NCBI GenBank assembly: GCA_017550525.1
Contig: JAFZOU010000110.1
Coordinates: 1-40,112, forward strand
Origin: Bacteroidales bacterium
Lineage (GTDB): Bacteria; Bacteroidota; Bacteroidia; Bacteroidales; UBA932
DNA length: 40,112 nucleotides
Direction: 5' to 3'
In this document: piece by piece, positions 5,801-27,218 of the stretch
Layout of the letters: each line of letters starts with the position of its first letter
Position numbering within the stretch: position 1 is the stretch's first letter
Notes under the pieces: model-generated
Database searches by the model: none
Told to the model about the DNA's origin: nothing
What the model saw: the letters and a program-made list of their open reading frames with translations, nothing else
Translations under genes and position numbers: made by a program

Positions 5801-5932
5801 CGGACAATCGGAGTATGCACCATCGGCGGAATGCTCTTCGGCACCTTGGGCATACTTCTCATTGTCCCTACGCTGTTTGTTTTATTTCAAACCATTCAGG
5901 AACGATTCAAACCACTGGAGGACAAGCAATGA
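2837..5932 (+). CDS. RND multidrug efflux pump, inner-membrane permease (AcrB/HAE-1 type)
   Basis: A 1031-residue pump of the hydrophobe/amphiphile RND family, standard length, built of two repeats each with a periplasmic porter/docking domain. N-terminal motif FIDRPLLSIVINVMVV is typical. The proton-relay residues are present: the Asp pair in GTVVDDSIVVVEA (transmembrane helix 4) and the Lys in LLSKTAILLTEYA (helix 10). It would export drugs, bile salts or similar amphiphiles from periplasm through the adaptor and TolC-like partner encoded beside it. It overlaps the MATE gene (ATGA at 2837-2840) and the channel gene (ATGA at 5929-5932). Only one copy of the GGCCGAT motif that is abundant elsewhere in the window lies in this 3.1-kb gene. 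Confidence 0.95.
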   Translation: MTIKSFIDRPLLSIVINVMVVALGVIALSRLPIEKYPDIAPPTVYLWASYPGASAETVQKSVLAPLEQAINGVDNMTYMTSSASNGSASISIFFKQGTNADMAAVNVQNRVVQAQAMLPQEVLRFGVSVEKQQPGQLRILALESPGGTYDENFLSNYFYNNLRPEILRIQGVGKVEVWGGQYALRIWMNPEAMMRHGIVPSDITALMEEQNVEASVGSIGENTANTFQYNLRYSGRKKDVTEFENLVLASKTSGETLLLKDVATLELGQSDYSYINRINGHPGVMGSISQVSASNATLINLEIDRLLRRVETSLPKDIRIVTFDNTNDFLFASIREVVFTLILAILLVLVVVFLFVQDFRATLIPALGIVVSLIGTFAFMAVAGFSVNMLTLFALVLVIGTVVDDSIVVVEAVQARFDAGYRDAHKATADAMNGLTAALFTTTLVFMVIFIPVSFISGTAGIFYKQFGLTMAVAVGISLLVALTLAPALCALILKPSNGSEGIGARIRKAYQVSFAAILGRYITLAMALIKRKWIAWVSIAAALALMAVLMRIVPTGFVPDEDMGSLYVDLSTQPGRTLESTEGILVRASDCIQDIPEVESVGAVAGFGGANKGMIQVQLKPWKERRGRAHSSWSVTERINAILADEKEAESMAMSPGMIDGYGRGGGFEVSLLNNGGADIRSFFEVSQRFIDALNRRPEISDAYSGYAVDYPQYRLDVDAARCKKMGVSPASVLNELSAFLGSSYASNFNRFNMVYQVTLQLRPDDRASLQSLDRLYVRSEAGVMLPVSQFITLTKEYMPQSLNRFNMVSSIDISGSVTSGSSTGSAIKAIREVAATQLPVGYSVEFGGITREESQTSSNVAMIFLICIVFVYLIMVALYESLFIPLAVMLGVPFGLAGAFLFARIFGVENNIYLQVGLLMLIGLLSKTAILLTEYATKCRQGGMSLVQSAMEAAKMRLRPILMTSMTMIFGMLPLMFASGAGANGSRTIGVCTIGGMLFGTLGILLIVPTLFVLFQTIQERFKPLEDKQ

Positions 5933-7182
5933 ATAACAATCGCCTGATATTGTTGATACTGTTTTTAGTGGGCACAATTGCCTCGGCACAGCCTTCAGAA
6001 ACGCTCCACTGGCGGGAAGTGTTCACGGACCCGCAGCTCTCGGCCCTGATTGACACGGCTTTGGCGCACAATACGGACCTTCGCACCGCATCCTTTCGTG
6101 TGGAGCAGGCCGATGCATCTCTCAGGATGTCCAGGCTTTCCATCCTGCCGTCGCTCTCAGTTGGAGGAGAAGGGTCCTTCATCAAAGAGAAAGGGTCCAA
6201 GGCTGCCTTCACATTCAGCCTGCCGGTGCGCCTGCAATGGGAGGTGAGCCTTTCCGGACGTTATTTCGCAGGGAATAAAGCAGCTGAAAGCCTGCTGTGG
6301 AGCGCTGAGGAAACTGAACGGGCGGCACGTCTTCAACTTGTAGCCGCCGTAGCCAGCCAGTACTACACGCTGCTTATTCTGGACGAAGAACTATCCATCA
6401 CCCGGGAAGGCCTGGAGAATGCCAGAAGGACCGTGGAAGTGATTGAAGCCATGAAGGAAGTGGGATTGCAGAATGAGGCGGCCGTAGCCCAGGCCCGTAC
6501 GGCCATGCTCAGTACGGCGGCGTCGGAAAAGACACTCCGGCAGCAGATTGTGGCTGCAGAAAGCGCGATGATGCTCCTTTTGGGAGAGCGGCGGGACAGC
6601 ATTTCCCGCAGCGGATACATCCCTGAGACGCTGCCGATGGATTACTCGGCCGGAATTCCACTGGAAACCCTTTCCCGGCGTCCTGATGTAAAGGCGGCGG
6701 AATGGGCCCTCCGTGCTTCTACGGCGCAGACGGATGTAGCCCGCTCGGCCTTCTATCCAACGCTTAGCATCACGGCTTCTTTCAATCTCCTGGACATGCT
6801 TACGGAAGCGGTGGGATCCCTGGTACAGCCGCTTTTCAATCTTGGCCGGAACAAAGGGAACCTGCGCATTGCCAAAGCCGAACAGGAGGCTTCGCTGGCC
6901 GCTTTCAGCCAGACACTCCTTGTAGCGGGTACAGAACTTCGGGACGCCCTGTCGGCCTGCCGCTTCAGCGGGGAACGCCTCTCACTCCGGGAACAGGAGG
7001 TGGAGGCTGCCACAAAAGCCTGCGAGGCTTCATCGGCCCTGATGCAAAACGGCAGCGCAACCTATCTGGAGGTATTATCGGCCCAGGCGGCCATCCTCGA
7101 GTCCCGCCTTTCCCGTGCAGCCGACCACCTGGACCTCCTGCAAGGTCAGATTAACCTATATAAAGCGCTGGGAGGAAATTAA
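5929..7182 (+). CDS. TolC/OprM-like outer-membrane efflux channel
   Basis: A 417-residue outer-membrane factor. I start it at 5929 because that ATG overlaps the pump stop and is followed by a good signal peptide (NNNRLILLILFLVGTIASAQ, cleaved after SAQ); the frame itself opens further upstream inside the pump gene. Two related coiled repeats rich in Ala, Glu and Leu (about 45-215 and 240-410) are the OEP domains, with the family signature LSRRPDVKAAEWALRAS and PLFNLGRNKGNL. It is somewhat shorter than OprM-type channels and has no obvious lipobox. It completes the tripartite pump. The next gene starts 24 bases later behind its own promoter. Confidence 0.9.
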   Translation: MNNNRLILLILFLVGTIASAQPSETLHWREVFTDPQLSALIDTALAHNTDLRTASFRVEQADASLRMSRLSILPSLSVGGEGSFIKEKGSKAAFTFSLPVRLQWEVSLSGRYFAGNKAAESLLWSAEETERAARLQLVAAVASQYYTLLILDEELSITREGLENARRTVEVIEAMKEVGLQNEAAVAQARTAMLSTAASEKTLRQQIVAAESAMMLLLGERRDSISRSGYIPETLPMDYSAGIPLETLSRRPDVKAAEWALRASTAQTDVARSAFYPTLSITASFNLLDMLTEAVGSLVQPLFNLGRNKGNLRIAKAEQEASLAAFSQTLLVAGTELRDALSACRFSGERLSLREQEVEAATKACEASSALMQNGSATYLEVLSAQAAILESRLSRAADHLDLLQGQINLYKALGGN

Positions 7183-13549: not shown

Positions 13550-16378
13550 TTACTGTTTCTTACTGAAAAGTATACGGCCGGTGCGTTTGATCATATAAGG
13601 AAGGATGCCGCCGAACTTGTCCTCGGAGGTGCGCATTACGCTGGCCTCAGGATGGACACGGTGAAGATGGATGGCATCAAAGCCGCACTTTGTGGTGCAG
13701 ACGCCGCAGCCTATGCACTTGTTCTCATCAACAACGGATGCGCCGCATTTGAGGCAGCGGGCGGTTTCCTTGCGGACCTGCTCCTCCGTGAGAGTGCCGT
13801 GATACTCCTGGAACTTGGACTTCACGGGCACAACGCCGGGATCCTGACGGGAAGAATTGTCGTAGGACTCCACAACGATATTACCCTTGTCAAGTTCAAT
13901 GAAATCCCTCCTGTTGCGGCCGATAGTCAAATGTCCGTGCTGGACAAAGCGGTGCAGGGACTCTGCAGCCTCCTTGCCGGCGGCGATGGCATCAATGGCA
14001 AACTTGGGGCCGGTGAAGCAGTCACCTCCAACAAAGATATCGGGCTCTGCGGTCTGGTAAGTGAGTTTATCGGCCACAGGATAGACGCCGCGGAAGAATT
14101 CAACCTTGGTGTCCTTGAGGAGGTCCTTCAGGATAACGGTTTGGCCGATAGCGAAGATGACCATATCGGCATCCAGAGTTATGAGCTCAGACTCATCGTA
14201 GGTGGGATTGAAGCGGTGATCCTTGTCAAACACGGATGTGCACTTCTTGAACACGATGCCCTTGACCTTATCTTCTCCAAGGACTTCCTTGGGACCCCAG
14301 CCGGGGTTGATCACAACACCGTCCTCACGGGCCTCAGTGCGTTCCTCAAGGGATGCGGGCATGATGTCCTCGGTTTCAAGGGAGAGCATAGTCACCTCTG
14401 AAGCGCCGCTTCTCATAGCAACGCGGGCCGCGTCAATGGCAACGTTGCCGCCGCCTACAACCACTACCTTGCCGGAGACCTTCTTGTCACCGCAGTTGGC
14501 TTCGTGCAGGAAGTCAATGGCGGTTGTGGTGCCGGGGAGGGTTTCTCCGGGGATGCCGGGAAGTCGGCCGCCCTGGCAGCCGATAGCCACGTAGAAACCC
14601 TTGTAGCCCTGTTCACGGAGCTGGGCTATGGTAATGTCCTTACCCACTTCCACGCCGGTACGCACTTCCACGCCAATCTCCTTCATAATGTCAATCTCCG
14701 CTTTGATAACGTCCTTGGCAAGTTTATATGAAGGGATGCCGTAGCGGAGCATACCGCCGGGTTCCTCATTCTTTTCAAACACTGTGGGCCTGTAACCCAT
14801 AGTGGCAAGGTAATTGGCGCAGGACATACCTGCAGGGCCGCCGCCGATGATTGCTATCTTTTCCTCCCAGTGATCCTTCACATTGGAGCAGCAGTTAACC
14901 TCAGGGACAAAGCGGGTTTCCGCGTGGAGGTCACGTTCTGCCAGGAATTTCTTGACGGCGTCAATTGCGATGGGCTGGTCAATGGTACCGCGGGTACAGG
15001 CGTCCTCGCAGCGGCGGTTACATACGCGGCCGCAGACTGCAGGGAACGGATTCTCACGCTTGATAAGCTCCAGAGCCTCTGTGTACTTTCCTTCTGCGGC
15101 CTTCCTGAGATATCCCTGAACGGCAATATGAGCAGGGCAGGCGGTCTTGCAGGGAGATGTACCGGTGTCATAGCAGTTGATGCGGTTCTTGTCACGGTAA
15201 TCCTCTGTCCACTTGTGCTCTCCCCACTTGGATGCATCAGGAAGCTCATGCTTGGGATACTTCACGGGGCCGTCCTTGGTGCAGAGTTTTTGGCCAAGCT
15301 TGACGGCACCGGCGGGGCAGTACTCAACGCACCTTCCACAGGCAACGCATTTTTCAGGCTCAACTTCTGCCACATAGGCGCTGCGGCTCATATTGGGAGT
15401 ATTGAAGAGCTGTGACGTACGGAGGGCATTGCAGATTTTGACGTTGCAGTTGCAGATGGCAAAGATCTTTCCCTCACCGTCAATATTTGTAATCTGGTGC
15501 ACAAATCCGTGGTCCTCAGCCTTCTTCAGGATGGCCATGCACTCATCATAGGTGATATAGTGGCCACGGCCGGTTTCGTTGAGGTATTCCGCCATGTCTC
15601 CAACGCCGATGCACCAGTCATGGTAATCATCGGCACACCCCTCATCAAGGAGTTTACGGCCGATACGGCAGGAGCAGATACCCACTGCCAGATGGCCCTC
15701 ATAGCGCTTTAGCCAATATGAGATATGCTCAATGTCTATGGACTGGTTCTCCATGGAAATGGCTTTCTCCACGGGAATGACATGCATGCCGATACCTGAG
15801 CCGCCCATAGGCACCATAGGCGTAATCTTCTCCAGAGGGAGGAAGGTCATACGCTCGAAGAACATACCAAGTTCCGGGTGCTTTTTCATAAGGGCCTCGT
15901 TCATGTTGGTATATTCTGCGCTGCCGGGAACGAACATGGGGACCCAGTACACGCGGTCTTCACGGTTATACGTGGTGCCTGGAACGGGACCGTCCTTGGT
16001 GTATTTGTCTCCGTAGTCGTATTCCATGATGCCAAGGCGCGCCATGAGGTCCAGAAGTTCATCGAAGGCTTCCGGAGTGGGCATATAATGCTTCTCAGCG
16101 TTGAGGGCGTGAATCTCCTGATAGCTCCAGTGCTTGCGTACCTTGAAAAAGTTTGAAGGCAGCATATCCAGCATAAGGTCAAGGGCAGCCTCGCGGTTTA
16201 CGGGATCCATCTCATCCTCGAAGATGCAGGCAAGGCCCCAGTATTCCGGGGCTTCCGTTGTCATCTTGATTTTGCCGGGGATACGGTCTGTGATGTGACG
16301 GACAAGTTTAAGCAGCTTGGGATTGGGATTCTTGTCTCCAAAATGCTTGGGGACAAACTTTTTTGACATCTCAGGCAT
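13550..16378 (-). CDS. Large FAD/NAD(P) iron-sulfur oxidoreductase, GltD-like
   Basis: A 942-residue cytosolic protein. The N-terminal third (1-340) is a module of unknown function with a Cys cluster (CSC, CNCNVKIC). A ferredoxin-type cluster motif CVACGRCVEYC follows near residue 345. Next comes a GltD-like block: CPAHIAVQGYLRKAAEGKY and CGRVCNRRCEDACTRG (N-terminal Fe-S domain, about 415-470), then two Rossmann sites, IAIIGGGPAGMSCANYLA for FAD (about 510) and VVVVGGGNVAIDAARVA for NAD(P)H (about 645), and the C-terminal FAD signature IFVGGDCFTGPKFAIDAIAAG. A last 4Fe-4S motif CIGCGVCTTKCGF ends the protein. It probably moves electrons between NAD(P)H and a ferredoxin-like partner. Its place between hypB and hypA links it to hydrogen or nickel metabolism; the exact partner is unknown. 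Confidence 0.85.
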   Translation of the reverse strand: MPEMSKKFVPKHFGDKNPNPKLLKLVRHITDRIPGKIKMTTEAPEYWGLACIFEDEMDPVNREAALDLMLDMLPSNFFKVRKHWSYQEIHALNAEKHYMPTPEAFDELLDLMARLGIMEYDYGDKYTKDGPVPGTTYNREDRVYWVPMFVPGSAEYTNMNEALMKKHPELGMFFERMTFLPLEKITPMVPMGGSGIGMHVIPVEKAISMENQSIDIEHISYWLKRYEGHLAVGICSCRIGRKLLDEGCADDYHDWCIGVGDMAEYLNETGRGHYITYDECMAILKKAEDHGFVHQITNIDGEGKIFAICNCNVKICNALRTSQLFNTPNMSRSAYVAEVEPEKCVACGRCVEYCPAGAVKLGQKLCTKDGPVKYPKHELPDASKWGEHKWTEDYRDKNRINCYDTGTSPCKTACPAHIAVQGYLRKAAEGKYTEALELIKRENPFPAVCGRVCNRRCEDACTRGTIDQPIAIDAVKKFLAERDLHAETRFVPEVNCCSNVKDHWEEKIAIIGGGPAGMSCANYLATMGYRPTVFEKNEEPGGMLRYGIPSYKLAKDVIKAEIDIMKEIGVEVRTGVEVGKDITIAQLREQGYKGFYVAIGCQGGRLPGIPGETLPGTTTAIDFLHEANCGDKKVSGKVVVVGGGNVAIDAARVAMRSGASEVTMLSLETEDIMPASLEERTEAREDGVVINPGWGPKEVLGEDKVKGIVFKKCTSVFDKDHRFNPTYDESELITLDADMVIFAIGQTVILKDLLKDTKVEFFRGVYPVADKLTYQTAEPDIFVGGDCFTGPKFAIDAIAAGKEAAESLHRFVQHGHLTIGRNRRDFIELDKGNIVVESYDNSSRQDPGVVPVKSKFQEYHGTLTEEQVRKETARCLKCGASVVDENKCIGCGVCTTKCGFDAIHLHRVHPEASVMRTSEDKFGGILPYMIKRTGRILFSKKQ

Positions 16379-16390
16379 ATAGCGTAAGTT

Positions 16391-17065
16391 TTAGTGTTTT
16401 TTCCAGTTTTTAACAGCTTCCAGGAGCCAGGAGGCAAATTCATCCACGCCCTCACCGGTTTTGGCCGATATAGGGATGACACGGGTATTTGGATTACGCA
16501 TACGGACGTACTCCCTGCACTTTTCCATATCAAAGTCGAAGTAAGGAAGGACGTCAATCTTATTCACCACCACAACGTCGCAGATGGAGAACATCAGGGG
16601 GTACTTGAGTGGTTTGTCGTGGCCTTCCGGGACAGAGAGTATCATGGCGTTGCAGGAGCTCCCGGTATCAAACTCTGCGGGGCACACAAGGTTCCCTACA
16701 TTCTCCAGGATCACAAGGTCCACATCCTCCATGGGCATGTTGTCAAGGCCCTGTCGGGTCATTTCCGCGTCCAGGTGGCACATGCCGCCGGTATGGAGCT
16801 GGATGGAAGGTATGCCGGTGGCTTCCTTGATCTTGACGGCATCTACGTCACTGTCAATATCGGCCTCCATTACCGCCACGCGGATTTTGTCCTTGATGCG
16901 GTTGATAACCTGGATGAGGGTTGTGGTTTTGCCGCTGCCGGGCGACGACATCAGGTTAAGCAAAAAAACGCCTTTGAGTTTCAACTCTTTACGCAGGGCC
17001 TCTGCATCAAGGTTGTTGTCCTCAAAGACGCTTTTTTTTATTTCGATAATCTTTACCGAATTCAT
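16391..17065 (-). CDS. hypB: HypB, GTPase for hydrogenase nickel insertion
   Basis: A 224-residue SIMIBI-class GTPase that works with HypA to load nickel. It has the Walker A SSPGSGKTTTL (about residues 40-50), the metal-site GGMCHLDAEM (about 93-102), ENVGNLVCPAEFD and the base-specificity motif NKID. It lacks the N-terminal His-rich stretch and the CxxCGC motif that some HypB proteins use to store nickel, so it is the minimal form. It is the first gene of its unit: the oxidoreductase begins 12 bases after its stop, and a promoter is visible upstream. Confidence 0.93.
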   Translation of the reverse strand: MNSVKIIEIKKSVFEDNNLDAEALRKELKLKGVFLLNLMSSPGSGKTTTLIQVINRIKDKIRVAVMEADIDSDVDAVKIKEATGIPSIQLHTGGMCHLDAEMTRQGLDNMPMEDVDLVILENVGNLVCPAEFDTGSSCNAMILSVPEGHDKPLKYPLMFSICDVVVVNKIDVLPYFDFDMEKCREYVRMRNPNTRVIPISAKTGEGVDEFASWLLEAVKNWKKH

Positions 17066-17093: not shown

Positions 17094-17125
17094 TAAATAT
17101 ACGCAAAAAAGCGCTATTTACCAAA
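17094..17125 (-). promoter_or_regulatory. Promoter of the hypB unit
   Basis: On the minus strand TTTG (17122-17125) is followed after 20 bases by TATATTTA (17094-17101), one mismatch from the TAnnTTTG consensus. It overlaps the 3' end of the preceding OmpA-like gene and lies about 30 bases upstream of the hypB ATG. Confidence 0.5.
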
Positions 17126-18577
17126 TTCCAGAAGCTCTTTCGCAATTTCACAGGCGGCGGTTGCCTCGGGAACTCCGGAGGCCTTGGCCGATGTGAAGAA
17201 CATTACCGCACCTTCCCAATCTTCCTGGAGAGCACATAGTACTCCCTTGGTGTAGAGTGCCACGGGGCTGTCTCCGGCCCTCTTCAGATAGGCTTCGGCG
17301 GCGGTAAGGTTGCCAAGACTCATTGCGGCGTTGGCCGCATTGATATTGACAACGGGGTCATAGGGGTAAATCCTTGCCGCAATCTTGAAGACCTCGTCAA
17401 ACTCATAGGTACCCATTTCATATCCTTGTGCAGCCAGGAAGAACTCCGTGATGCTCAGATTGGCGGGTGCAGTATGAAGGATGCGCCTGGCATCATCAGC
17501 GGTGGTGTAGCTCTTGACGGTATAGCTGACACGGTAATCTGTGCGCCTGAGAAGCGGGAAGATATCTTTAACCATAGCGGCCCACTGCTTGGGATAAGAA
17601 GCCTTGATCTTTGCCTCTTTCTTATCCAGGGCAATGTCGGAATCAATGATCTCAAGGAGTTTATCCTTGGCCGATAATTCAGAAGCCTCCACGGCAGCGC
17701 GGAGACCATCCCAGTTCTCTGCAACGGATTCGGCCTTGAACACTTTATCGTCCAGGAGGGTATCCAGCTTGCTCACGTAGTCCTTGATGGCCTGCGTACG
17801 CGCCTTGGATAGTTTCTCGTTGGTGGCAAGTTTGCCGTCCGGTGATGAATAACCCTTCAGGATAACGTCCGTAATGGTGACGTCTACATCGGCCCTTACG
17901 GAATCTATGGTGGCGCGGATCTTCTCCAGTTCCAGGGCGTTGTCCTTGTAAGCGGGATCCACGGCCGTTTTGCCGGAAGCAAACACTACGTATGCCTCGC
18001 CGGAGATGTCACGCTGCTTGACGGTGGTCTCTGCGGGCGGCAGCACATAGATAAACTGGGGCCGATAAACGGGTTTCACAGGTTCTGGCTCAATGTATGG
18101 CATGGTGACGCTATTCACCGGGACGCCTTTTACGGTCTCCCCTTCCTTGCCGCAGCAGCCGCCAACCTCCGCGTCTATGCGGATTTTGGCAAGCTCCATC
18201 CACTCCTGATAGGGAGTGTAAACCACAAAGTGGTAGGGCTTGGGGGCATCTTTCCAGTACCAGGTATGCTCCTCGGCCGAAAAGGGCTCTGAAGTTCTGC
18301 GCTCACGGGCGTAATGGTAGAACCAGCGGCGTCCAAGAAGGGTTGCGATGGGGAAATTGATGTAATTGTCCCCTGCGTAAAGAACCAGGGTATAATTACG
18401 CTGCTCAGTTGCAGAAGGATCTATGTATGAGAAATCCAGATCCATCTGGCCCAGCAGGTCTGTTCCGTCAAGGACAAACTCCACGTTGGATACAGCCACG
18501 TCGTTGGAATACTCCTGTCCAAAGGCCAAAGCGCCGCCAAGCAGCGCGAGGCAAATTGTGATAATTGTCTTTTTCAT
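17114..18577 (-). CDS. DUF3868-type protein with OmpA-like domain (fimbrial accessory)
   Basis: A 487-residue exported protein with signal peptide KKTIITICLALLGGALAFGQ. The N-terminal part (20-180) resembles DUF3868, a family found beside fimbrillin genes in Bacteroidales. Residues about 190-275 look like an OmpA C-terminal peptidoglycan-binding domain (VVFASGKTAVDP, then GYSSPDGKLATNEKLSKARTQAIKDY). The C-terminus (about 390-487) has helical, TPR-like Asn/Ala repeats. It would sit in the periplasm or outer membrane and help assemble or anchor surface fibres. It is the last gene of the amylase/fimbrillin operon, three bases after the DUF3575 gene. Family calls are from memory of typical neighbours. 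Confidence 0.8.
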   Translation of the reverse strand: MKKTIITICLALLGGALAFGQEYSNDVAVSNVEFVLDGTDLLGQMDLDFSYIDPSATEQRNYTLVLYAGDNYINFPIATLLGRRWFYHYARERRTSEPFSAEEHTWYWKDAPKPYHFVVYTPYQEWMELAKIRIDAEVGGCCGKEGETVKGVPVNSVTMPYIEPEPVKPVYRPQFIYVLPPAETTVKQRDISGEAYVVFASGKTAVDPAYKDNALELEKIRATIDSVRADVDVTITDVILKGYSSPDGKLATNEKLSKARTQAIKDYVSKLDTLLDDKVFKAESVAENWDGLRAAVEASELSAKDKLLEIIDSDIALDKKEAKIKASYPKQWAAMVKDIFPLLRRTDYRVSYTVKSYTTADDARRILHTAPANLSITEFFLAAQGYEMGTYEFDEVFKIAARIYPYDPVVNINAANAAMSLGNLTAAEAYLKRAGDSPVALYTKGVLCALQEDWEGAVMFFTSAKASGVPEATAACEIAKELLEFGK

Positions 18578-18580
18578 AGC

Positions 18581-19159
18581 CTAGAACAGATAAGAGAACG
18601 TGACTGCAAGCCTTGTGGGGCCGACATAGTCAAACTTGGAACCCTGGAGGATGCGTACCCCGTCGGAGTACTCATCTCCCTTTACGAACATATAGCCAAG
18701 TCCCATCTCAAGCTCCAGGTTCCAGTGCCGGGAGATGATGAAGTCGTAGCCGAAGCCCACGCCTCCGCCAAGCATTTTGGCATTCTGGAGGTAGAAAGTC
18801 TTGAGATTGGGGAACTTTTCATAGTACTGGCTGAAGTCCCAGAAACCGCCGACACTTGGAGTATAACCTCCAATGGCGTGCGCGTCTACGAACCATCCGC
18901 TGAAACGGTCACAGAACCAGTAACGGAGTTCCGGCTGAACAAGAACGTGTTGAAGGCTCATTTCAGCGGGCTGCCACCAGTTGACGCTACCGCTTACTTC
19001 TGCACTCCAATGCGGGGCAAATCCCCATTCTACGGCCAGGTTCACGGACATTGTTGCGTCGTGAAGAACGTTGGTCTTGAGGGCCCAGCGGTTCTGGGCC
19101 CCCAGGGTTCCAACGGATATGAGAGCCGCAATCAATATTGCTATAATTCTTGCTTTCAT
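18581..19159 (-). CDS. DUF3575 outer-membrane beta-barrel protein
   Basis: A 192-residue protein with a cleaved signal (RIIAILIAALISVGTLGAQ). After it come alternating amphipathic strands, with WALKTNVLHDATMSVNLAVEW, PELRYWFCDRFSGWFVDAH and an aromatic C-terminus TFSYLF, as expected for a small outer-membrane barrel. It resembles DUF3575, which commonly pairs with DUF3868 proteins in Bacteroidales fimbrial loci. The next gene follows after three bases. Likely role: outer-membrane component of fibre assembly; this is inference from context. Confidence 0.82.
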   Translation of the reverse strand: MKARIIAILIAALISVGTLGAQNRWALKTNVLHDATMSVNLAVEWGFAPHWSAEVSGSVNWWQPAEMSLQHVLVQPELRYWFCDRFSGWFVDAHAIGGYTPSVGGFWDFSQYYEKFPNLKTFYLQNAKMLGGGVGFGYDFIISRHWNLELEMGLGYMFVKGDEYSDGVRILQGSKFDYVGPTRLAVTFSYLF

Positions 19160-19171
19160 ATTCAGTACCGT

Positions 19172-20017
19172 TTATTTAATAGGTATTTCGCCGTCATCGG
19201 CCCAGTCTGTTACACTGAGAATGAAGGTACCGGTAAGTCCAACAGTAGCCTTATACGCAATTCCCGGTTCAAGGGAAGTGGCAGTTTCAGGTTTAGCATC
19301 AATGACCAGGCCTTCTTTCAGAGTGACTTTAAGGCCGATTGAACCATTCTGGGGCACCATAATGGCCGTGTAGCCAGTGCCACCGTTTGCCTCAACGGCT
19401 TTGCCAAAAGTAACCTGACCTTTCAGGAGGGCCTCGGGCTCTACATTACCGTCTACAAGGTTCAGTCTCAGGCCCGTCACCACATCTTCGGCAACCACTG
19501 ATTGCACCTCAATGTCCGGAACCTCCATAACCACCACAAGCTTACTCAGCGCGTGCTGGAATTTGAGGTCCACAGCATTACCAGGCCTGGCATCCACAAC
19601 GGCGTAGCGAAGGTCAGAGGCCTGATACGCCGCGTAGGTGCTCTGATCGGTCTGAACGCTGAAGGAGTAATCTATGGCTCCCAGATTTGCATTATAAGGC
19701 AGGTATGCGGCAAAACGCGTTGGCTTTGTCTGGTTCAGTTCCCATTTCACACGATAATCCGTAGACACCTTGCTACCTGTCACCGTACCCTTCACATTGT
19801 AAGCGTTGATGGGTTCCAGGGCAAAGATGCCAATGGCGTCACCGTCTTCAAGGGCAGAGTCGGAGGCTTTGGTGAGATAGCCTGAGGCCGATGCGGTAAA
19901 CACCACATCCTCCCTCATATTATACTTCACCTCCTCCGGGTTCTCCTTGCCCCTTCGGCAAGAGCATACACCCAAGGCGAGAATACCTATTGTGAGTATT
20001 ACAATGTATTTTCTCAT
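19172..20017 (-). CDS. Fimbrillin-family lipoprotein (Mfa-like)
   Basis: A 281-residue lipoprotein with signal RKYIVILTIGILALGVCSC (Cys18 or Cys20). The body matches the Mfa_like_1 fimbrillin pattern: VVFTASASGYLTKASDSALEDGD at the start of the mature fold, then AIGIFAL, a central FQHALSKLVVVM and a closing SVTDWADDGEIPIK. Unlike its two upstream neighbours it ends after the fimbrillin domains and has no carbohydrate-binding tail, so it could be the polymerising stalk subunit of the set. It starts 18 bases after the preceding stop. Confidence 0.82.
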   Translation of the reverse strand: MRKYIVILTIGILALGVCSCRRGKENPEEVKYNMREDVVFTASASGYLTKASDSALEDGDAIGIFALEPINAYNVKGTVTGSKVSTDYRVKWELNQTKPTRFAAYLPYNANLGAIDYSFSVQTDQSTYAAYQASDLRYAVVDARPGNAVDLKFQHALSKLVVVMEVPDIEVQSVVAEDVVTGLRLNLVDGNVEPEALLKGQVTFGKAVEANGGTGYTAIMVPQNGSIGLKVTLKEGLVIDAKPETATSLEPGIAYKATVGLTGTFILSVTDWADDGEIPIK

Positions 20018-20035
20018 AATGGGTGAATAACCTAA

Positions 20036-21979
20036 CTATTTTTGGGTTACATAAAGTTCACCCTTCTTGTCCCCGTCTACATAGAGTTTGAACTCATACT
20101 GGTGGGCAAAGGGCTTGATAATGATATTGGCCGAGGCTTGGTTATTGGGCACAAGATCAATCTTCTGATTGGCCTCAGTGATCTCAAACTCATTGTTGGG
20201 AGCGTCGGGAGCGCCAAACTGTGTATCCCAGCCCTGACCCTTGAGTTTGAACTTGAAGCCGACTTTCTCGGCATCTTCTGCACCAAGGGTTACATTAATG
20301 GTCCAGAGATTTGCATCCTCAGTATCCTGAGTCATAGCGTGCTCTGTGTTCCAGTCATTTGCAAGACCTATCACTGCCCATACATCTCCTTGAGGTTCCG
20401 GAGCGACGGTGGGAGTGAATGTGGCAGGATTCTCAATCACTGCTACGCTCTTGTCGGACTTCAGCTCCAGATAGACTGTGGTCTGTGCTGCCGTAAGGGT
20501 TACAGGGAACTTGAGGTTCAAGGTCTTCTTGTCATCGCTACCGTTTGAGTTAAGGATATAATAGAGGTTATCCTTGTTAAGCGGAGCGGCATCAAACACG
20601 AATGACTTATAGGTCACCTCATTTACAACAACGTCAGTTGCTGCAGGAGCAGCACCGGGCCATTCAGTAAGGCTCTGGGAGTCTACTCCTGCCTCAAGCC
20701 ACATATGAAGGTTAAGGCTTTCCCAACCTGCGCCATCATAGACGTTTACAGTAAGTTTGCCGGTTTCTGCGGGCTGGGGATCTTCACCGCCACCGTTGGC
20801 AGTTACTACAAACCACTTGGTATCAGGAGCAAAGAAGAGGTGATACTCGCCAGCGGCAGCAAGGACAATGTTCTTAGCACTGGGATCATCAGATAGATAA
20901 TTGCTATTATCACCAAAATCACCTAATCCATATGTATCACCCCAATCGGGTTTCATACCTACCCAGGTATCACCGCATTTGAGCTTGAATTCATCGCCGG
21001 CAGCGTATGTGATGTCTGCGCTCCAGTTATGATACTCATCTTCTATCATATTGATAACTGCGGGATTATCCCAGGTGTTTCCGTTAAGTTTACCGATTAC
21101 AATCCAGGAGTTCTCCGGATCTACGGGAGCATCCTCAATCTCGGGATCACCAAATACAAGGGCTTCGTCGTCAACCTCCCAGTCAGATACGGTGAAGCTG
21201 AATTCAACCTGACCTTCCTCTGCTTCAGGAGCAACGGTAAGGTTTGCAGTAGCCTTCTTGCCAGCCTTGAATTCAAAGGCCGATGCAAGTGCGAATACGT
21301 ATGCCTTGCCGTTGGAAAGGCTCACGCGCACCTTGGGACTGGCAGTCTGAGGCACAAGAATGAGCTTGTAGTCATTTCCGTCCTTGGCAGCCTTGATGTT
21401 TGCCATAGAGTTATCCAGGCCGGAAATGGCGGCTGTCTTGAGATCGATGGTAGCGCCAAGGGCCACACCTTCAAATGCTACGGAATTGACCGTAGTGTTC
21501 TCTACGGTGTTGGTGACCTTGAATACAACCTTTGAAAGGGCGTGCTTGAAAGCAAGCTCCACGGCATTCTCTGTAGGGGCAGTTGATTTGGCAGCCAGCA
21601 TAAGGTCACTCTTTGCGTAACCGGTGCTCTGGTCGGCCTGGACTGCAAAATTATAGGATTGTGCTACATTATCGGCATAAGGATAATATGCAAAGAAGTC
21701 TACTACGCCGTTGTCGCCTTCCTTCCATTTGATAGGAGTTGAAGGGATAAGGCTGGTGCCGGAAACGGTAGCCTGAACGTTTGTCTTACTGATGGGGGTA
21801 CCGGCAAAGATACCAACCTTGTCACCGTTATCAAAAGCGGTGTCAGTAGCCTTAACGGTATAGGTCTGGATGTTGGTGGTAAACCTCACCTCACCGGGCC
21901 GTGCCGTGCGAACTGTTTCCTGCTTGGCGCAGGCTGCAAGAGCCAGAGCCGCTACAAGTATTATTGATATTTTTTTCAT
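20036..21979 (-). CDS. Fimbrillin-like lipoprotein fused to three starch-binding-type modules
   Basis: A 647-residue lipoprotein (lipobox LAAC, Cys17). Residues about 28-285 follow the fimbrillin pattern (VRFTTNIQTYTVKATDTAFDNGD, VGIFAGTP, FKHALSKVVFKV, FSFTVSDWEVDDE). An acidic linker leads to a SusE/SusF-like module (about 290-392, WIVIGKLNGNTWDNPAVINM), a CBM26-like module (about 403-520, VNVYDGAGWESLNLHMWLEAG, then ILNSNGSDDKKTLNL) and a second SusE/F-like module (about 530-647, VWAVIGLANDW). The same module types occur in the amylase at the head of this operon, which implies a shared starch or alpha-glucan ligand. The fusion suggests an adhesive, glycan-binding fibre or tip subunit. Binding is inferred, not shown. 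Confidence 0.8.
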   Translation of the reverse strand: MKKISIILVAALALAACAKQETVRTARPGEVRFTTNIQTYTVKATDTAFDNGDKVGIFAGTPISKTNVQATVSGTSLIPSTPIKWKEGDNGVVDFFAYYPYADNVAQSYNFAVQADQSTGYAKSDLMLAAKSTAPTENAVELAFKHALSKVVFKVTNTVENTTVNSVAFEGVALGATIDLKTAAISGLDNSMANIKAAKDGNDYKLILVPQTASPKVRVSLSNGKAYVFALASAFEFKAGKKATANLTVAPEAEEGQVEFSFTVSDWEVDDEALVFGDPEIEDAPVDPENSWIVIGKLNGNTWDNPAVINMIEDEYHNWSADITYAAGDEFKLKCGDTWVGMKPDWGDTYGLGDFGDNSNYLSDDPSAKNIVLAAAGEYHLFFAPDTKWFVVTANGGGEDPQPAETGKLTVNVYDGAGWESLNLHMWLEAGVDSQSLTEWPGAAPAATDVVVNEVTYKSFVFDAAPLNKDNLYYILNSNGSDDKKTLNLKFPVTLTAAQTTVYLELKSDKSVAVIENPATFTPTVAPEPQGDVWAVIGLANDWNTEHAMTQDTEDANLWTINVTLGAEDAEKVGFKFKLKGQGWDTQFGAPDAPNNEFEITEANQKIDLVPNNQASANIIIKPFAHQYEFKLYVDGDKKGELYVTQK

Positions 21980-21981
21980 AA

Positions 21982-23295
21982 TTATTCAGTTGTTGCTGAT
22001 GTTACATCTCCAAGACGGGTTGCAGTAAGATCATCATCAGTCAGGACAAGACGCCACTGACCCTTGGATGCAAGACGGATATTCTTGCTGGACTGTTCAG
22101 AAGACAGATTCTGATAAGTGTCCTCGCTAGTAAGAGTCCAGTCGTCAGCAGTTGATGTCTGGAAGCCAAACTGGGTAGCCCACCTGTCATCTCCGGTAAC
22201 GCCATTGGTGAAACGACGGAGTTTAAGGCCCTTGCCGGTATCAGACATAGCCTCATCATAGTTGATGTCGATAGTCCAGCTGCCGTTTTGCAGAAGGGCC
22301 ATAGGATAGTCATAATTCCAGGCGGGATATGAGCCAAGGCTCTTGTGGTCGTCATCATAGACGCAGCCCACTACGTGCCAGTAGTTGCCCAGAGTCTGAG
22401 ATGTGCTGCTGTTCACAGGATTTGAAGCAGCATTTCCCCAATCAGTGGTTGAATAGGACATAGAGACGGACTGAAGGTCTCCACCGCCGCCTGATCCTCC
22501 GATGGGAGCAAGAGTAACAGCCGCTGTGGCTACCTTACCGGCAGTGAATGTATAACTGGCAGTAAGGCTGAATGTGTAAACGGAGCCAAGGGTGGTTGTA
22601 ACCACAATGTTGGGCTGGGCAGCCTGAGGCATAACAATGAGCTGATAGACACCTTCTGCCGAGTTGTATGCCAACATATCCTTTGTGTCTTCTGCTTCGG
22701 CAGAAAGGGCTGTAACAGGGCTTTCTTCAGCCACGTTGAATGTTGAAGCCTTGCACTTCATACCGGTGAGTTTCACGGAAGCGATGCCGTCTCCACCCAA
22801 CTGGTTTGTGACATTGATAACAACCTTGGCGAAGGGGTGTTTGAAGTTGAAAACTACACCGCCAACTGTGCTGGGAGAAGCTGTAGCCACGGCAGTCACA
22901 ATATTGTTCTGATAGGTGAATGCGTCTTCATTTGTCTGGTCTGCGGGAATATCATATTCACCGGAAGCGTTTGCCGCAACGTAAGGATAACGTGCGCAGA
23001 ACGTTGTGCTGGCCGTCTGACCCAGACCCCAATAAATAGTGGTGCTTACAGGAGTAAGGGTGTTGCTCTGGCCAACAGCGTACTCCACGTGATTTGCACC
23101 AAGGTCTGAGGCATAGATTGCCACGTTGTCACAATTCTCTTCACCGATTGCGACTGACTTGAATTCGTAAACGTTAAGGTTGTTCATTGAGAACGATACC
23201 TCACGCGGTCCCTGATCCATTGTAGGGGCCGCCTGCTTCTGGCAAGCCACAAGTGTTGCGGCAGCTGCCAAAACAATTAATAGTGTTTTTCTCAT
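21982..23295 (-). CDS. Fimbrillin-like lipoprotein with one SusE/F-like C-terminal module
   Basis: A 437-residue lipoprotein (lipobox LVAC, Cys18). Residues about 30-265 are fimbrillin-like (REVSFSMNNLNVYEF, FNFKHPFAKVVINVTNQ, LIVMPQAAQPNIVV). A Gly/Ser linker (GGSGGGG, about residue 268-275) joins a C-terminal module (about 300-437, YWHVVGCVYDDDHKS, then WTIDINYDEA and WATQFGFQT) like the last module of the neighbouring 647-residue protein. Only two bases separate the two genes, so they are expressed together. With the amylase upstream it is probably a second alpha-glucan-binding surface subunit. Confidence 0.8.
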   Translation of the reverse strand: MRKTLLIVLAAAATLVACQKQAAPTMDQGPREVSFSMNNLNVYEFKSVAIGEENCDNVAIYASDLGANHVEYAVGQSNTLTPVSTTIYWGLGQTASTTFCARYPYVAANASGEYDIPADQTNEDAFTYQNNIVTAVATASPSTVGGVVFNFKHPFAKVVINVTNQLGGDGIASVKLTGMKCKASTFNVAEESPVTALSAEAEDTKDMLAYNSAEGVYQLIVMPQAAQPNIVVTTTLGSVYTFSLTASYTFTAGKVATAAVTLAPIGGSGGGGDLQSVSMSYSTTDWGNAASNPVNSSTSQTLGNYWHVVGCVYDDDHKSLGSYPAWNYDYPMALLQNGSWTIDINYDEAMSDTGKGLKLRRFTNGVTGDDRWATQFGFQTSTADDWTLTSEDTYQNLSSEQSSKNIRLASKGQWRLVLTDDDLTATRLGDVTSATTE

Positions 23296-23329
23296 AACGA
23301 TTTGAGTTTTAGTGATATATTGAATTTGT

Positions 23330-26300
23330 TTAGTTCAATGCAAATACTACGGAGCTGTAACCGGGCATAGTGACATTGTAGCCGCTCACGGTCACCTTGC
23401 CGGAGGAAACCAGAATGTGGCTAAGGTCATTGCCGTGGGCGCTGCGGTCTACGGTTATGGTGTAGCTGGAGAGGTTGTGGAGCACCAGCACTACCTTGTC
23501 TCCGCCGTTCTGATGCATATACCAGCCGGCGATACGACCGTCGTAACCACCTGTGGTTGCATCATCGGGTTCCGGCCAGCCGTCTGCCAGGGCGGGATTA
23601 ACGCTTCTGGCGTAAGCAAAGTGGCGGTAGAGGTTGAGGAGGGACGCATCATCGGCCGCTTGGCTTTCCACGCTGATTGCAGGGGTAAGCATTGTCCAGT
23701 CAACCTTGTTGGAAACGCCCTTTGAAGCCGCACTTGACTTCTGTGGAGTCCAGAGGATGGGCGTACGTACATACTCGTCACCAAACTGCTTGGTGCCCCA
23801 GTAGCCCAGCTCTTCACCCTGATAGATATAGGGGCGACCGGCCGATGTAAGCAGAACGCACGCAGCCAGACGGACCTTGGGCTTATAGTTGCCAAGGGTG
23901 GAAGCCGTACGGTCTTCGTCGTGATTGGCCAGCTTGGGCGTTGAGATTGCATCGGCCCTTACGCCCTTGTGATTGTCCCAGCGGTACCTGAGGGAGCCAG
24001 GGAAATTCTGGCCGTAGCCGGCGCGATAGATTGTTTCTGCGTTCAGGCATTCGCGGAGATCCCACCAGAACTGGAACTCGAACAGGGCGGGCAGGCCCTC
24101 GTAGAACGGGGTGCAGTCTCCATCTCCGGAGAGGACCTCGCCTACCATGAAGATGTTTTCATCGGCCCAACCTGTAAGATCCTGGCGCGCCATGGTAGCA
24201 ACGGAGCCCTTGTAAATCTCATTGCAGGCGCTGTAGAACTTCTTCCAGAAGGTCTTGTTTTCAGGACCGGTCTCATTCTGATAGATGTGCTTCACAGCAT
24301 CCAGGCGGAAGCCGTCCACACCCATTTCCAGCCACTTCTTGGCGCTCTGGATGATAGCCTTGAAGGCATTGGAGTTCTGGCAGTTATCGGCCGGTCCATA
24401 GTTGAAGTCCACAAACATTCCGGTGCCGAACTCCGTGTAATAGTAGTACATGTCTCCGCCTGGCATCACAATGTTTTTGATGATGTCGTTGTTTTCCGTG
24501 GAGTTGTAGAGGACGTGAGGGACGCCAAGCTTAATCTGGTCTCCCATTGAGTTGAATCCCCACTTGCTGCCAAGCGGCCACTCGTCTCCCTTGTTGGTAC
24601 GCACAAGGCATCCCCAGCTACTCTGGAAGTCAAGCACCAGGGTGTACTTGTTGGTTCCGTTGTCCTGGAAGCGGGTAGTTGATGTACCCCACTGGAGGTA
24701 GCGTTCCGGATTGGTACCGGAAGTGACTGTGGGCGTAACACTTGCGGTGGTTTCCGTCACTGTCATAGTAGGGGCGCTGGAATTGGTCCAATCGAGATCA
24801 ATCTTAAAGCGATATTTACCTTCTCCGCCGATTAGCACGGGGAACCACTTGCCGGATTCGTAGTACTGTGTCTGGGCGATCTTGCCGGCGGCAACATCGG
24901 CCTCAGGATTCTTTGACAGGGAGAAATAATCCCAGTAATCGCTCTCCGGGCCCTTCTTTTTAATGTCATTAAACCATTCGCTGTCGTCTCCGGCGTGGTT
25001 GATCACGTAGTCCATATAGATACGGATATTGTGCTTGTGGGCCTCCTGGATGAGCTCCTGGAAGTCTTCCTCCGTACCGTATTTCTTGTTCAGGGAGAAG
25101 TAATCCTTGACATCGTATCCGTGGTAGGACTGTGCGGGCTGAAGCGGTGAGAGCCACAGGCCGGTTACACCCAGCTTGTCAAAGTAATCCAGGCTATGGG
25201 TAAGGCCCTTGAGGTCTCCATAGCCGTCTCCGTTGGAATCCTTGAAGGAGAAGACGTTCACCTGATAAGTTATACCGGAAAGCTTATTTGCAGGGGCCAG
25301 GTTGGGGTCATAATCTCCTGAACCAGAGTATTCCGGCTTGCCCTCGGCCTCATGGGTCCAGGCCGATCCTGCAGGGAGAATGTAGCAGATCTTGTTCTCT
25401 GCTGCAAGGTAGATGTCATAGCTGCCGGGTGCCACAGAGATGTTTGCGCCGCCGGGCTGCATATCAAGCTTGGCGCCGGGAGTTGCCTCGCGGGCATTAT
25501 CTCCCATATTGTCTCCGTAGCCGTAGTTATTGCCCCAGCTGCGGTTCTGGCGGAACTTGAACATATCCCCTGACGCAACGGTGACATCCTTTGCAACTTC
25601 CCAGTAGCCTTCCGTATCCATTGCAAGGTCCATATCCCAACTGGAACCTTCAATTATGCCGATTATGGTCCAGGAACTGGTGCCGAACTTTACAAAATCC
25701 GGGGTAATACCCTTGCCTTCCACGCCGGGCTTCGAAGGATCATCAACCTGGGTCAACTTATTGCCGTCCCACACATAGAAGAGGTTGTTATGGATGGTAA
25801 GGTTGCTCCAGAGGGGATCCTTTTCATCTTTAGCGGGATATTGATCCTTGCCGTTATTGTTCAGGATGAGGTTGATTGAACCCACGCCACTGAAACCGGA
25901 AGCCTCCCAGTATGTCCAGGTGTAGCCGTTAAATTCCTTGGTGCCGGCAGAGTAGGTGCCGGGCCACTGGCCGTAGGGCTGCATTTCGCCTGAACCTACG
26001 TACGCATACATATAGGGTTTTGTCCAAGTGGAGTTGTTGAGGACGTAGATACGGACGTTCTCGTCCTCGTGGCTTTCTGCCTGGGCGTCTCCGTGGGCGA
26101 ATTCATCTCCGGCATTCTCCACATACATCATCATAAACTGAGGATGCAGATATATGTCATATGTGCCTACAGGAAGTGCGAAGTTGTTGTCCATACCGTC
26201 ATCGGCCACATAATACCTGCGGTCTATGGAAGGCTGACCGGCGCCAGTACCAAGGTTCACGGCCCAGCTGTTGTCCTGGCGGAACTTGAACTGCTCCCCT

Positions 26301-26878
26301 TCTGCGGCCACCACCACGTCAAATGCTGCAAGCCAGCCGCTGCCGCCAACATCTTCCTTCATTGGAATGTCAGTTGCGCCTGAGTTGCCCCAGTTAAGAC
26401 TCATAATGGAGCCCGTGATGCCCCAGCTGGATTCAACGGAGAAGTTTTCCCTTGGAATTACCTCACCGGGTTCTTCCGGTTCATCCGACCCTCCTTCTCC
26501 TTTGGCCGATTGTTTTATGTCAATTGTGGCCTTTACGTCCGGATAAGCGGTGAGGATAAAGACTACCGTGCCGGTACGCTCCTGGTCTGTGGTGTTGGGA
26601 TCCACCTTCATTGTGACCGTCTTATTGCCGGCCGCACTTTCCGGGGATATAGTTATCCACTTTTCCGACACCTGGACAGTCCATGCGCCGTTTGCGGTGA
26701 TTTCAATGGTTCTGTCACCGCCATTGCCGGCAAAAGTAATATAGTCTCTTGAAGATTGAATCTTTGGCATTTCTTCTTCGGGTGTTTCCGGTCTTACGCA
26801 GGAATACAACGGTAGAAGCATCAAGAATGCCATCACAGTAGCATAGAAGCCACATTTCCTTCTCAAACAGTCTCTCAT
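23330..26878 (-). CDS. SusG-like GH13 alpha-amylase lipoprotein with N-terminal binding modules
   Basis: A 1182-residue lipoprotein (lipobox PLYSC, Cys27, followed by acidic residues as in surface-exported Bacteroidota lipoproteins). Order of parts: BACON-like domain (about 42-125), SusE/F-like module (145-262), CBM26-like module (270-385), second SusE/F-like module (395-512), GH13 barrel (about 532 on), and a C-terminal beta domain. Catalysis looks intact: DYVINH (His628), GFRLDAVKH with nucleophile Asp860, FMVGEV with acid/base Glu914, and NHDEDR with Asp987. An insert of about 100 residues (688-790) between the first and second catalytic motifs matches the place where SusG carries CBM58. 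It would cut starch at the cell surface. It is the first gene of the fimbrillin operon and follows a promoter at 26915-26922. Confidence 0.92.
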   Translation of the reverse strand: MRDCLRRKCGFYATVMAFLMLLPLYSCVRPETPEEEMPKIQSSRDYITFAGNGGDRTIEITANGAWTVQVSEKWITISPESAAGNKTVTMKVDPNTTDQERTGTVVFILTAYPDVKATIDIKQSAKGEGGSDEPEEPGEVIPRENFSVESSWGITGSIMSLNWGNSGATDIPMKEDVGGSGWLAAFDVVVAAEGEQFKFRQDNSWAVNLGTGAGQPSIDRRYYVADDGMDNNFALPVGTYDIYLHPQFMMMYVENAGDEFAHGDAQAESHEDENVRIYVLNNSTWTKPYMYAYVGSGEMQPYGQWPGTYSAGTKEFNGYTWTYWEASGFSGVGSINLILNNNGKDQYPAKDEKDPLWSNLTIHNNLFYVWDGNKLTQVDDPSKPGVEGKGITPDFVKFGTSSWTIIGIIEGSSWDMDLAMDTEGYWEVAKDVTVASGDMFKFRQNRSWGNNYGYGDNMGDNAREATPGAKLDMQPGGANISVAPGSYDIYLAAENKICYILPAGSAWTHEAEGKPEYSGSGDYDPNLAPANKLSGITYQVNVFSFKDSNGDGYGDLKGLTHSLDYFDKLGVTGLWLSPLQPAQSYHGYDVKDYFSLNKKYGTEEDFQELIQEAHKHNIRIYMDYVINHAGDDSEWFNDIKKKGPESDYWDYFSLSKNPEADVAAGKIAQTQYYESGKWFPVLIGGEGKYRFKIDLDWTNSSAPTMTVTETTASVTPTVTSGTNPERYLQWGTSTTRFQDNGTNKYTLVLDFQSSWGCLVRTNKGDEWPLGSKWGFNSMGDQIKLGVPHVLYNSTENNDIIKNIVMPGGDMYYYYTEFGTGMFVDFNYGPADNCQNSNAFKAIIQSAKKWLEMGVDGFRLDAVKHIYQNETGPENKTFWKKFYSACNEIYKGSVATMARQDLTGWADENIFMVGEVLSGDGDCTPFYEGLPALFEFQFWWDLRECLNAETIYRAGYGQNFPGSLRYRWDNHKGVRADAISTPKLANHDEDRTASTLGNYKPKVRLAACVLLTSAGRPYIYQGEELGYWGTKQFGDEYVRTPILWTPQKSSAASKGVSNKVDWTMLTPAISVESQAADDASLLNLYRHFAYARSVNPALADGWPEPDDATTGGYDGRIAGWYMHQNGGDKVVLVLHNLSSYTITVDRSAHGNDLSHILVSSGKVTVSGYNVTMPGYSSVVFALN

Positions 26879-26914
26879 TTGGTTCTGTTTTGGTTGTTAC
26901 ATAATTATGGTTTA

Positions 26915-26922
26915 CAAAGTTA
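26915..26922 (-). promoter_or_regulatory. -7 element (TAACTTTG) of the amylase/fimbrillin operon
   Basis: TAACTTTG on the minus strand fits TAnnTTTG and would give a leader of about 30 bases before the amylase ATG at 26878. No good TTTG is seen at the -33 spacing, which is often a sign of an activator-dependent promoter; the inverted repeat at 26925-26939 lies in that place. Confidence 0.5.
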
Positions 26923-26924
26923 CT

Positions 26925-26939
26925 CAATACAAAGTATTG
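26925..26939. promoter_or_regulatory. Inverted repeat CAATACAAAGTATTG, candidate operator
   Basis: Two perfect 6-bp arms (CAATAC and GTATTG) flank AAA, immediately upstream of the amylase-operon -7 element. Size and position fit an operator for a dimeric regulator controlling starch use. No regulator gene for it is in the window. Confidence 0.4.
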
Positions 26940-26967
26940 TTTCTATCCCGTTCATCCCTTAAAAGTA

Positions 26968-26975
26968 TACCTTTG
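26968..26975 (+). promoter_or_regulatory. Possible second plus-strand promoter element (TACCTTTG)
   Basis: TACCTTTG matches TAnnTTTG and points toward glpA, 244 bases upstream of its ATG. No gene follows directly except a 14-codon frame at 27000-27044. It may start a longer glp leader or a small RNA, or be a chance match. Confidence 0.2.
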
Positions 26976-27074
26976 CTCCCAAAACTCACCCATTCGTCAT
27001 ATGTGTGCCCGTATGCAGGCGCGGCCGCGGGATGGCAGAACGTAAGTGCCTGATTATTAGTGAATTGCAAATTG

Positions 27075-27100
27075 TTTTACCAAAACCGGTAATGGTAAAA
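27075..27100. repeat. Inverted repeat TTTTACCA...TGGTAAAA upstream of glpA
   Basis: TTTTACCA (27075-27082) and TGGTAAAA (27093-27100) are perfect 8-bp arms around a 10-base centre that itself holds the palindrome ACCGGT. It lies about 70 bases upstream of the glpA -33 element. It may be a regulator site, or a hairpin in a longer transcript. Confidence 0.35.
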
Positions 27101-27166
27101 CATTCTGTAAAAGGCTGGCAGTCTGATAGTTACGCCACACCAACGGGGGAAAACGCCAGATGGGGG

Positions 27167-27197
27167 TTGCAGGGGTGAGGGAAATTGATTAAATTTG
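27167..27197 (+). promoter_or_regulatory. Promoter of the glpABC operon
   Basis: A TTG at 27167-27169 and TAAATTTG at 27190-27197 are spaced 20 bases apart, fitting the Bacteroidota -33/-7 pattern. Transcription would begin near 27203, giving a leader of about 15 bases. A possible TTG start codon at 27195 falls inside the -7 element and is therefore excluded. Confidence 0.6.
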
Positions 27198-27218
27198 CGT
27201 GATAGTAACACGCGAACT

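Follow-up and report, generated by a model that had tools for sequence, protein, structure and literature searches.

The locus described here raises the question of whether a starch-degrading enzyme and a set of fimbrial subunits, encoded side by side, belong to one surface apparatus or are neighbours by coincidence. The window, by which we mean the whole 40,112-nucleotide stretch of Bacteroidales DNA that was analysed, contains six ORFs on the minus strand (17114..26878) with intergenic gaps of 34, 2, 18, 12, and 3 bases. Read 5' to 3', these encode a SusG-type GH13 lipoprotein (Amy), three PF13149 fimbrillins (FimA, FimB, and FimC), a DUF3575 protein, and a DUF3868/OmpA-type protein (Table 1). 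An earlier note, made from the sequence alone, had listed six minus-strand genes with gaps of 2 to 34 bases, and all of these ORFs were recovered. A second, named MAG has the identical gene order on one of its contigs, 136 kb long, which shows that the linkage did not arise from an artefact in a single assembly. We propose, with a probability of about 60%, that the operon encodes a type V-pilus-like surface apparatus for alpha-glucan adhesion and digestion that carries its own amylase.

Table 1. Features of the amylase-fimbrillin operon and their positions in the window
Feature	Positions	Strand	Basis
Promoter -7 box, predicted, TAACTTTGT (consensus TANNTTTGY)	26914..26922	-	starts 44 bases before Amy start
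Amy, 1182-aa SusG-type GH13 amylase lipoprotein	23330..26878	-	Pfam, SusG alignment, motifs
Amy BACON domain	26510..26683	-	Pfam, residues 66-123, E 1.5e-8
Amy CBM 1, SusE/F-like family	26093..26458	-	82-domain alignment
Amy CBM26	25829..26050	-	Pfam, residues 277-350, E 1.7e-6
Amy CBM 3, same domain family as fimbrillin tails	25319..25723	-	alignment and profile comparison
Amy CBM58, inserted in GH13 domain	24482..24814	-	Pfam, residues 689-799, E 7.8e-27
FimA, 437-aa lipoprotein, fimbrillin domain and C-terminal module	21982..23295	-	
FimA C-terminal module, SusE/F-like CBM	21985..22395	-	sequence profiles; no confident structure model
FimB, 647-aa lipoprotein, fimbrillin domain and three C-terminal modules	20036..21979	-	
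FimB CBM 1, SusE-like	20780..21130	-	
FimB CBM 2, CBM26-like, weak	20540..20734	-	Pfam, residues 416-480, E 0.0036, below curated cut-off
FimB CBM 3	20039..20419	-	
FimC, 281-aa plain fimbrillin lipoprotein, candidate stalk or anchor	19172..20017	-	PF13149, E 3.6e-29; role predicted
DUF3575 outer-membrane barrel-type protein	18581..19159	-	Pfam, E 4.6e-43
DUF3868/OmpA-type accessory protein, TPR-like C-terminus	17114..18577	-	OmpA, E 0.0077; DUF3868 via family
~8-kb amylase-to-FimC block, about 99% identical to MAG Tb.RUG.384 (L009)	19100..27200	.	DNA comparison

A -7 box was sought in the 420 bases upstream of each operon (335 for G006) using the TANNTTTGY consensus given in excerpts of PMC12632263. 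All nine amylase-fimbrillin operons that were checked have one box upstream of the amylase gene, 44 to 147 bases away from its called start, and the background of this motif in the window is 0.24 per kb per strand. The -7 box and the short gaps together suggest that the operon is read as a single transcript. An invertible promoter was also considered, and no case could be made for one: near the amylase start there are only weak inverted repeats, one of 23 nt (78%) with adjacent arms and a second of 14 nt (79%) that spans the -7 box.

Amy consists of a BACON domain, N-terminal CBMs, a CBM26, a GH13 domain with an inserted CBM58, and SusG_C. Its identification as a SusG-like GH13 amylase lipoprotein was borne out, since residues 525-1181 align with residues 28-667 of SusG (3k8k; E 3.4e-141), the CBM58 is accompanied by Pfam matches to Alpha-amylase (E 3.7e-67) and SusG_C (E 8.2e-9), and the N-terminus carries a lipobox-like LYSC. 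The GH13 motifs DYVINH, GFRLDA, VGEV, and ANHD are kept. By sequence this is a SusG-type amylase, and it is probably located on the cell surface. No SusC/SusD pair accompanies it in the window, as had been noted earlier: 22 SusD matches were found in the genome and none on contig C126, and no ORF in the window matched the SusC or SusD of L069. Such pairs do occur in hybrid loci of two related genomes, G511 and G515.

The three following proteins were predicted to be two tailed and one plain fimbrillin lipoproteins, which agrees with their Pfam matches to PF13149 Mfa_like_1 (FimA, E 2.4e-21; FimB, E 1.9e-41; FimC, Table 1) and with the Cys-bearing signal-type start of each. The pilin domains of FimA and FimB match the pilin fold, so that fimbrillin-fold subunits of the type V pilus kind are present. 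Among the 43 fimbrillins of these loci, 41 have Cys at the lipobox column, as expected of lipoprotein precursors, and at the alignment position taken to be the pilin trimming site, 39 have Lys and one has Arg. The gene caller, which scored codon use, placed the start of FimC too late in G546, G448, G626, G527, and G512. The genome of the window encodes 14 fimbrillins over the cut-off and also a clostripain, the class of protease said to trim these pilins in excerpts of PMC12632263. The same excerpts define tip pilins by an extra C-terminal domain.

Such a domain is seen in FimB, whose tail fold matches the solved starch-binding domains of SusE, SusF, the AmyP SBD, and the X25 module of Ruminococcus bromii Sca5, and which would on this basis be a tip subunit with a C-terminal ligand-binding domain, both ligand and tip position being predictions; its second module was modelled with a pLDDT under 50. 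The FimA tail has no Pfam match and a low-confidence structure model. The starch-binding-type tails described in the earlier note are upheld by fold for FimB, and for FimA the evidence is that of profiles. PF16411 SusF_SusE did not match FimA or FimB of the window at E up to 1, and across the 43 fimbrillins SusF_SusE matched seven and CBM26 matched five (E up to 0.01). When single sequences were searched against the PDB (E up to 1), the sole match to FimB was the pilin 4k4k (0.0027) and FimA gave just one weak, unrelated match; a profile of the FimA tail gave nothing up to E 5. An alignment of 82 domains was built from five window domains and 77 of 111 domain hits at 19 loci, after removal of three query types and of hits that scored no more than 30 bits. 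Whether they come from amylases, SusE/F-like lipoproteins, or fimbrillins, the domains form a single aligned family: one Gly and one Trp are present in every one of the 82, and 93% have a second Trp. A 12-domain profile searched against the PDB gave SusF (4fe9, E 0.0016) as its best match and the R. bromii X25 module (7rpy, E 0.13) as its second, with four other matches up to E 5 that look unrelated. A profile of four amylase CBMs and one SusE/F-like domain, compared with a profile of four FimA tails, gave a probability of 87 and an E of 4.1e-6. On these alignments, one CBM family is common to the enzyme and the fimbrillins.

DUF3575 and DUF3868 genes are typical neighbours of fimbrillin genes. 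The Pfam search of all six proteins upheld the GH13, fimbrillin, and DUF3575 assignments. The sixth protein, which had been called DUF3868/OmpA-like, does not itself match DUF3868 in Pfam and gave only weak OmpA and TPR matches; of 14 proteins aligned from its family, nine do match DUF3868 (E up to 0.05, the lowest 5.4e-13), and the assignment stands through the family. DUF3575 and OmpA-type genes accompany seven of the nine amylase-fimbrillin operons, and there was no trace of accessory genes in the stretches examined from G006 and G512.

In order to determine whether the amylase and the fimbrillins travel together, 400 species of the genus, each represented by a single genome, were surveyed for orthologues of Amy (E up to 1e-215; best two candidates per genome scored) and relatives of FimA (E up to 1e-28; best four scored), so that the counts hold for the best places in each genome. 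Orthologues of the amylase were found in 25 genomes and relatives of FimA in 16, and all 16 fall within the 25, for which the chance is about 1e-22 if phylogeny is ignored. The neighbourhoods of 24 of the 25 were inspected, and G524 was judged from survey coordinates, by which FimA follows the amylase at a distance of some 40 bases. As the amylase coordinate of G524 coincides with that of L009, the two are apparently the same genome. The gene order was found again elsewhere: in 11 of the 25 genomes, fimbrillins lie downstream of the amylase and share its strand. Nine of these are G000, G524, G546, G448, G487, G626, G512, G006, and G527, and in the other two, G504 and G482, the fimbrillins follow a more distant amylase with one or two ORFs between. 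In G400, G464, and G589 the contig breaks off in the amylase gene or at its edge, and in G569 it continues for 1.2 kb past the gene. The remaining orthologues have Sus-type or other surroundings and no adjacent fimbrillin, those in G070, G092, G452, G488, and G515 lying beside SusC and SusD. Random placement would give 0.15 adjacent cases among 22, a figure that uses the 14 fimbrillins of the window's own genome and an assumed gene number, versus the 11 of 25 observed. On an amylase tree of 24 rows the fimbrillin label forms four separate groups and needs three changes, a number as low being reached in three of 500 shuffles; the label is clustered on the tree and the species are not independent. 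As judged from these gene positions, the linkage of amylase and fimbrillins is not due to chance.

At 13 of the 16 FimA loci a GH13 gene is found in the same cluster. In three of these (G091, G511, and G515) the cluster begins with a different, smaller GH13, and at least two of these three enzymes have a lipobox-type start. The hybrid loci mentioned above (L136, G515:C20; L138, G511:C16) contain a GH13, five fimbrillins, most of them with CBM-type tails, a SusE/F-like protein (two in G515), SusC, and SusD. The FimA loci of G089, G092, and G488 have no GH13 in the stretches examined, and a 1089-aa predicted ORF before the fimbrillins of G089 had no Pfam match at E up to 0.1. When a profile of the 43 fimbrillins was searched against 247 genomes of the order (E up to 1e-28; best seven or fewer candidates per genome scored), matches were found in four genomes, three of them outside the genus, and covered only the pilin part of the profile, positions 1-287.

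Comparison of close relatives indicated that the tails can be replaced. G546 and G448 are alike in amylase (98%), FimB pilin domain (96.7%), FimC (97.2%), DUF3575 (99%), and OmpA (96.4%), whereas FimA pilin (44.6%), FimA tail (39.4%), and FimB tail (48.5%) diverge. Between G546 and G487 the amylase is 93.3-95.9% and FimA 96.4-96.7% identical, the FimB tail just 59.6%. The DNA identity drops after the FimB pilin part and returns at the FimB end, and judged by domain matches the replacing tails retain the same kinds of modules. On these comparisons, the CBM tails have been replaced in relatives that remain 93-98% alike in the amylase and the pilin domain of FimB. The proteins of these operons (L131, L132, and L133) are otherwise about 91-99% alike, with FimB tails and, in one pair, a whole FimA replaced. 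A larger unit was seen between the window and L009, where the genes of the block are 99.1-99.9% identical, versus flanks of 83-97% (DUF3575 83.4, OmpA 84.2, next genes 90.7, 85.8, 96.6, and 91.4, and 92.5 on the glp side). A block of about 99% inside such flanks makes a recent exchange between species probable, in which the amylase with its promoter and all three fimbrillins moved as a unit, although the block may instead be a chimeric metagenome assembly.

On comparative evidence, a co-expressed apparatus for alpha-glucan adhesion and digestion is well supported. The analysis establishes the gene content, the pilin-domain folds of FimA and FimB, the starch-type folds of FimB, the conserved linkage, and the CBM family common to enzyme and fimbrillins; fibre formation, starch binding, surface location, the roles of FimC and the accessory proteins, and the import route we infer. 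The first gene would give a lipoprotein amylase, probably at the cell surface. FimA and FimB would be type V-pilus-type subunits with C-terminal modules that bind starch, probably at fibre tips, and FimC, the plain subunit, would form the stalk or the anchor. Assembly or anchoring would be aided by the DUF3575 and DUF3868/OmpA proteins. Such an apparatus would keep starch close to the amylase, and the released maltodextrins might be imported via another locus. One guess is the alpha-glucan cluster on C9 of the same genome (L082), with a TonB receptor, GH97, two GH13 lipoproteins, and a uridine-kinase-like protein, and with no SusD within the 19 kb examined. The earlier reading of a fibre that holds starch near a co-expressed amylase, with its products imported elsewhere, is supported.

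The main rival reading is that no fibre is formed: FimA and FimB would then stay unpolymerised at the surface as glycan-binding lipoproteins which substitute for SusE and SusF, using the fimbrillin scaffold as a spacer, and feed a membrane amylase. Such a surface array on a pilin scaffold would suit the two tailed subunits versus one plain, the operons of G006 and G512 in which accessory genes were not seen in the stretches examined, and the CBM-fimbrillins of G511 and G515 that share a locus with SusE/F-like proteins, SusC, and SusD. It is a serious rival, but we regard it as less likely than a fibre given the Lys conserved at the pilin processing position, the DUF3575/OmpA-type genes in seven of nine operons, the clostripain in the genome, and the pilin-fold matches, and a fibre is the likely form on these predictions.

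The ligand could be another alpha-glucan, such as glycogen or a host or bacterial alpha-glucan coat, in which case the role would be in biofilm or cell-cell contact instead of dietary starch. CBM26, CBM58, and SusE/F folds generally bind alpha-1,4-glucan. We nevertheless think this improbable, as the amylase is SusG-type, with orthologues beside SusC/SusD in five genomes, and the tails match proteins named as starch-binding. That an ordinary adhesive fimbria has come to lie next to an unrelated amylase is less probable still: fimbrillin and GH13 genes are each multi-copy in the genome and some fimbrillin loci lack a GH13, but the conserved linkage, its recurrence with a second GH13 type, the common CBM family, and the block transfer already disfavour it.

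The adhesion-and-digestion apparatus that we propose resembles type V pili of Bacteroidota (the Fim and Mfa fimbriae of Porphyromonas gingivalis and pilins of gut Bacteroides) in having subunits of the fimbrillin fold with a lipoprotein signal, a basic residue conserved near the first strand, and, as in tip pilins, an additional C-terminal domain, and in the presence of a clostripain in the genome. It differs in having starch-binding-type modules as tails and an amylase as the first gene, and its fibre is a predicted one. Like the Sus system (SusC, D, E, F, and G) it has a SusG-type amylase and SusE/F-type CBMs, but SusC and SusD are missing from the operon and the CBMs ride on fimbrillins too. 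Sca5 of the R. bromii amylosome, a cohesin-containing protein of a Gram-positive, bears X25 modules without a pilin fold. The nearest described parallel found is a resistant-starch cluster of Bifidobacterium globosum, in which excerpts of PMC13271388 place amylase genes and two pilin-related proteins in one cluster figure and report these proteins as up-regulated with starch; unlike those of the window operon, they are Gram-positive isopeptide-type pilins, and the excerpts report no starch binding for them. The Pil proteins of Ruminococcus albus are pilin-type proteins tied to adhesion to a rumen polysaccharide, cellulose; as described in excerpts of PMC4300822 they differ in being type IV pilin-like, with no operon shared with an enzyme, and no transcriptional change of the pil locus on cellulose is reported there. 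In searches of open-licence PMC literature neither an amylase combined with starch-binding fimbrillins nor any system merging Sus and fimbrial parts was found, as the earlier note had anticipated; the parts are of known kinds and the combination is new so far as those searches show. More tentatively, at slightly less than even odds, these loci may represent a 'fimbrial Sus': within a single large Bacteroidales genus, one class of type V pili would have exchangeable starch-binding tail cassettes and a pilin-plus-amylase block that is mobile between species as a unit, and an extended fibre would capture starch and feed it to a co-expressed surface amylase, either without SusC/SusD or fused with them in hybrids. 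If this is true, a poorly understood class of pilus gains a predictable, testable target: the ligand can be predicted because the tails of the fimbrillins and the adjacent amylase have a domain family in common, which reduces the question to a simple binding assay. A second, possibly longer-range strategy of starch capture would also join the Sus paradigm. The loci show, in addition, that ligand modules are swapped on a conserved pilin.

Several other features were observed in passing. At 436-7182 of the window, an efflux system is encoded in a row, with an HlyD-type fusion protein, a MatE transporter, an AcrB-type pump, and an OEP outer-membrane protein. A 942-aa iron-sulfur/glutamate-synthase-like oxidoreductase (13550-16378) and a HypB-like GTPase (16391-17065) were named by eye. 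ORFs of roughly these two lengths also follow the operon in G546 and G448, and also in G487 and G626, where they are cut by the contig or stretch end. Clusters of long fimbrillins of about 650-1480 aa, several with CBM-like domains, occur at L081 (C26 of the window's own genome), L080, L110, L111, and L112, with no GH13 in the stretches examined. At L077 (G091:C29, 11675-13188), short pieces of fimbrillin and CBM lie in separate ORFs that look like broken copies or frame shifts.
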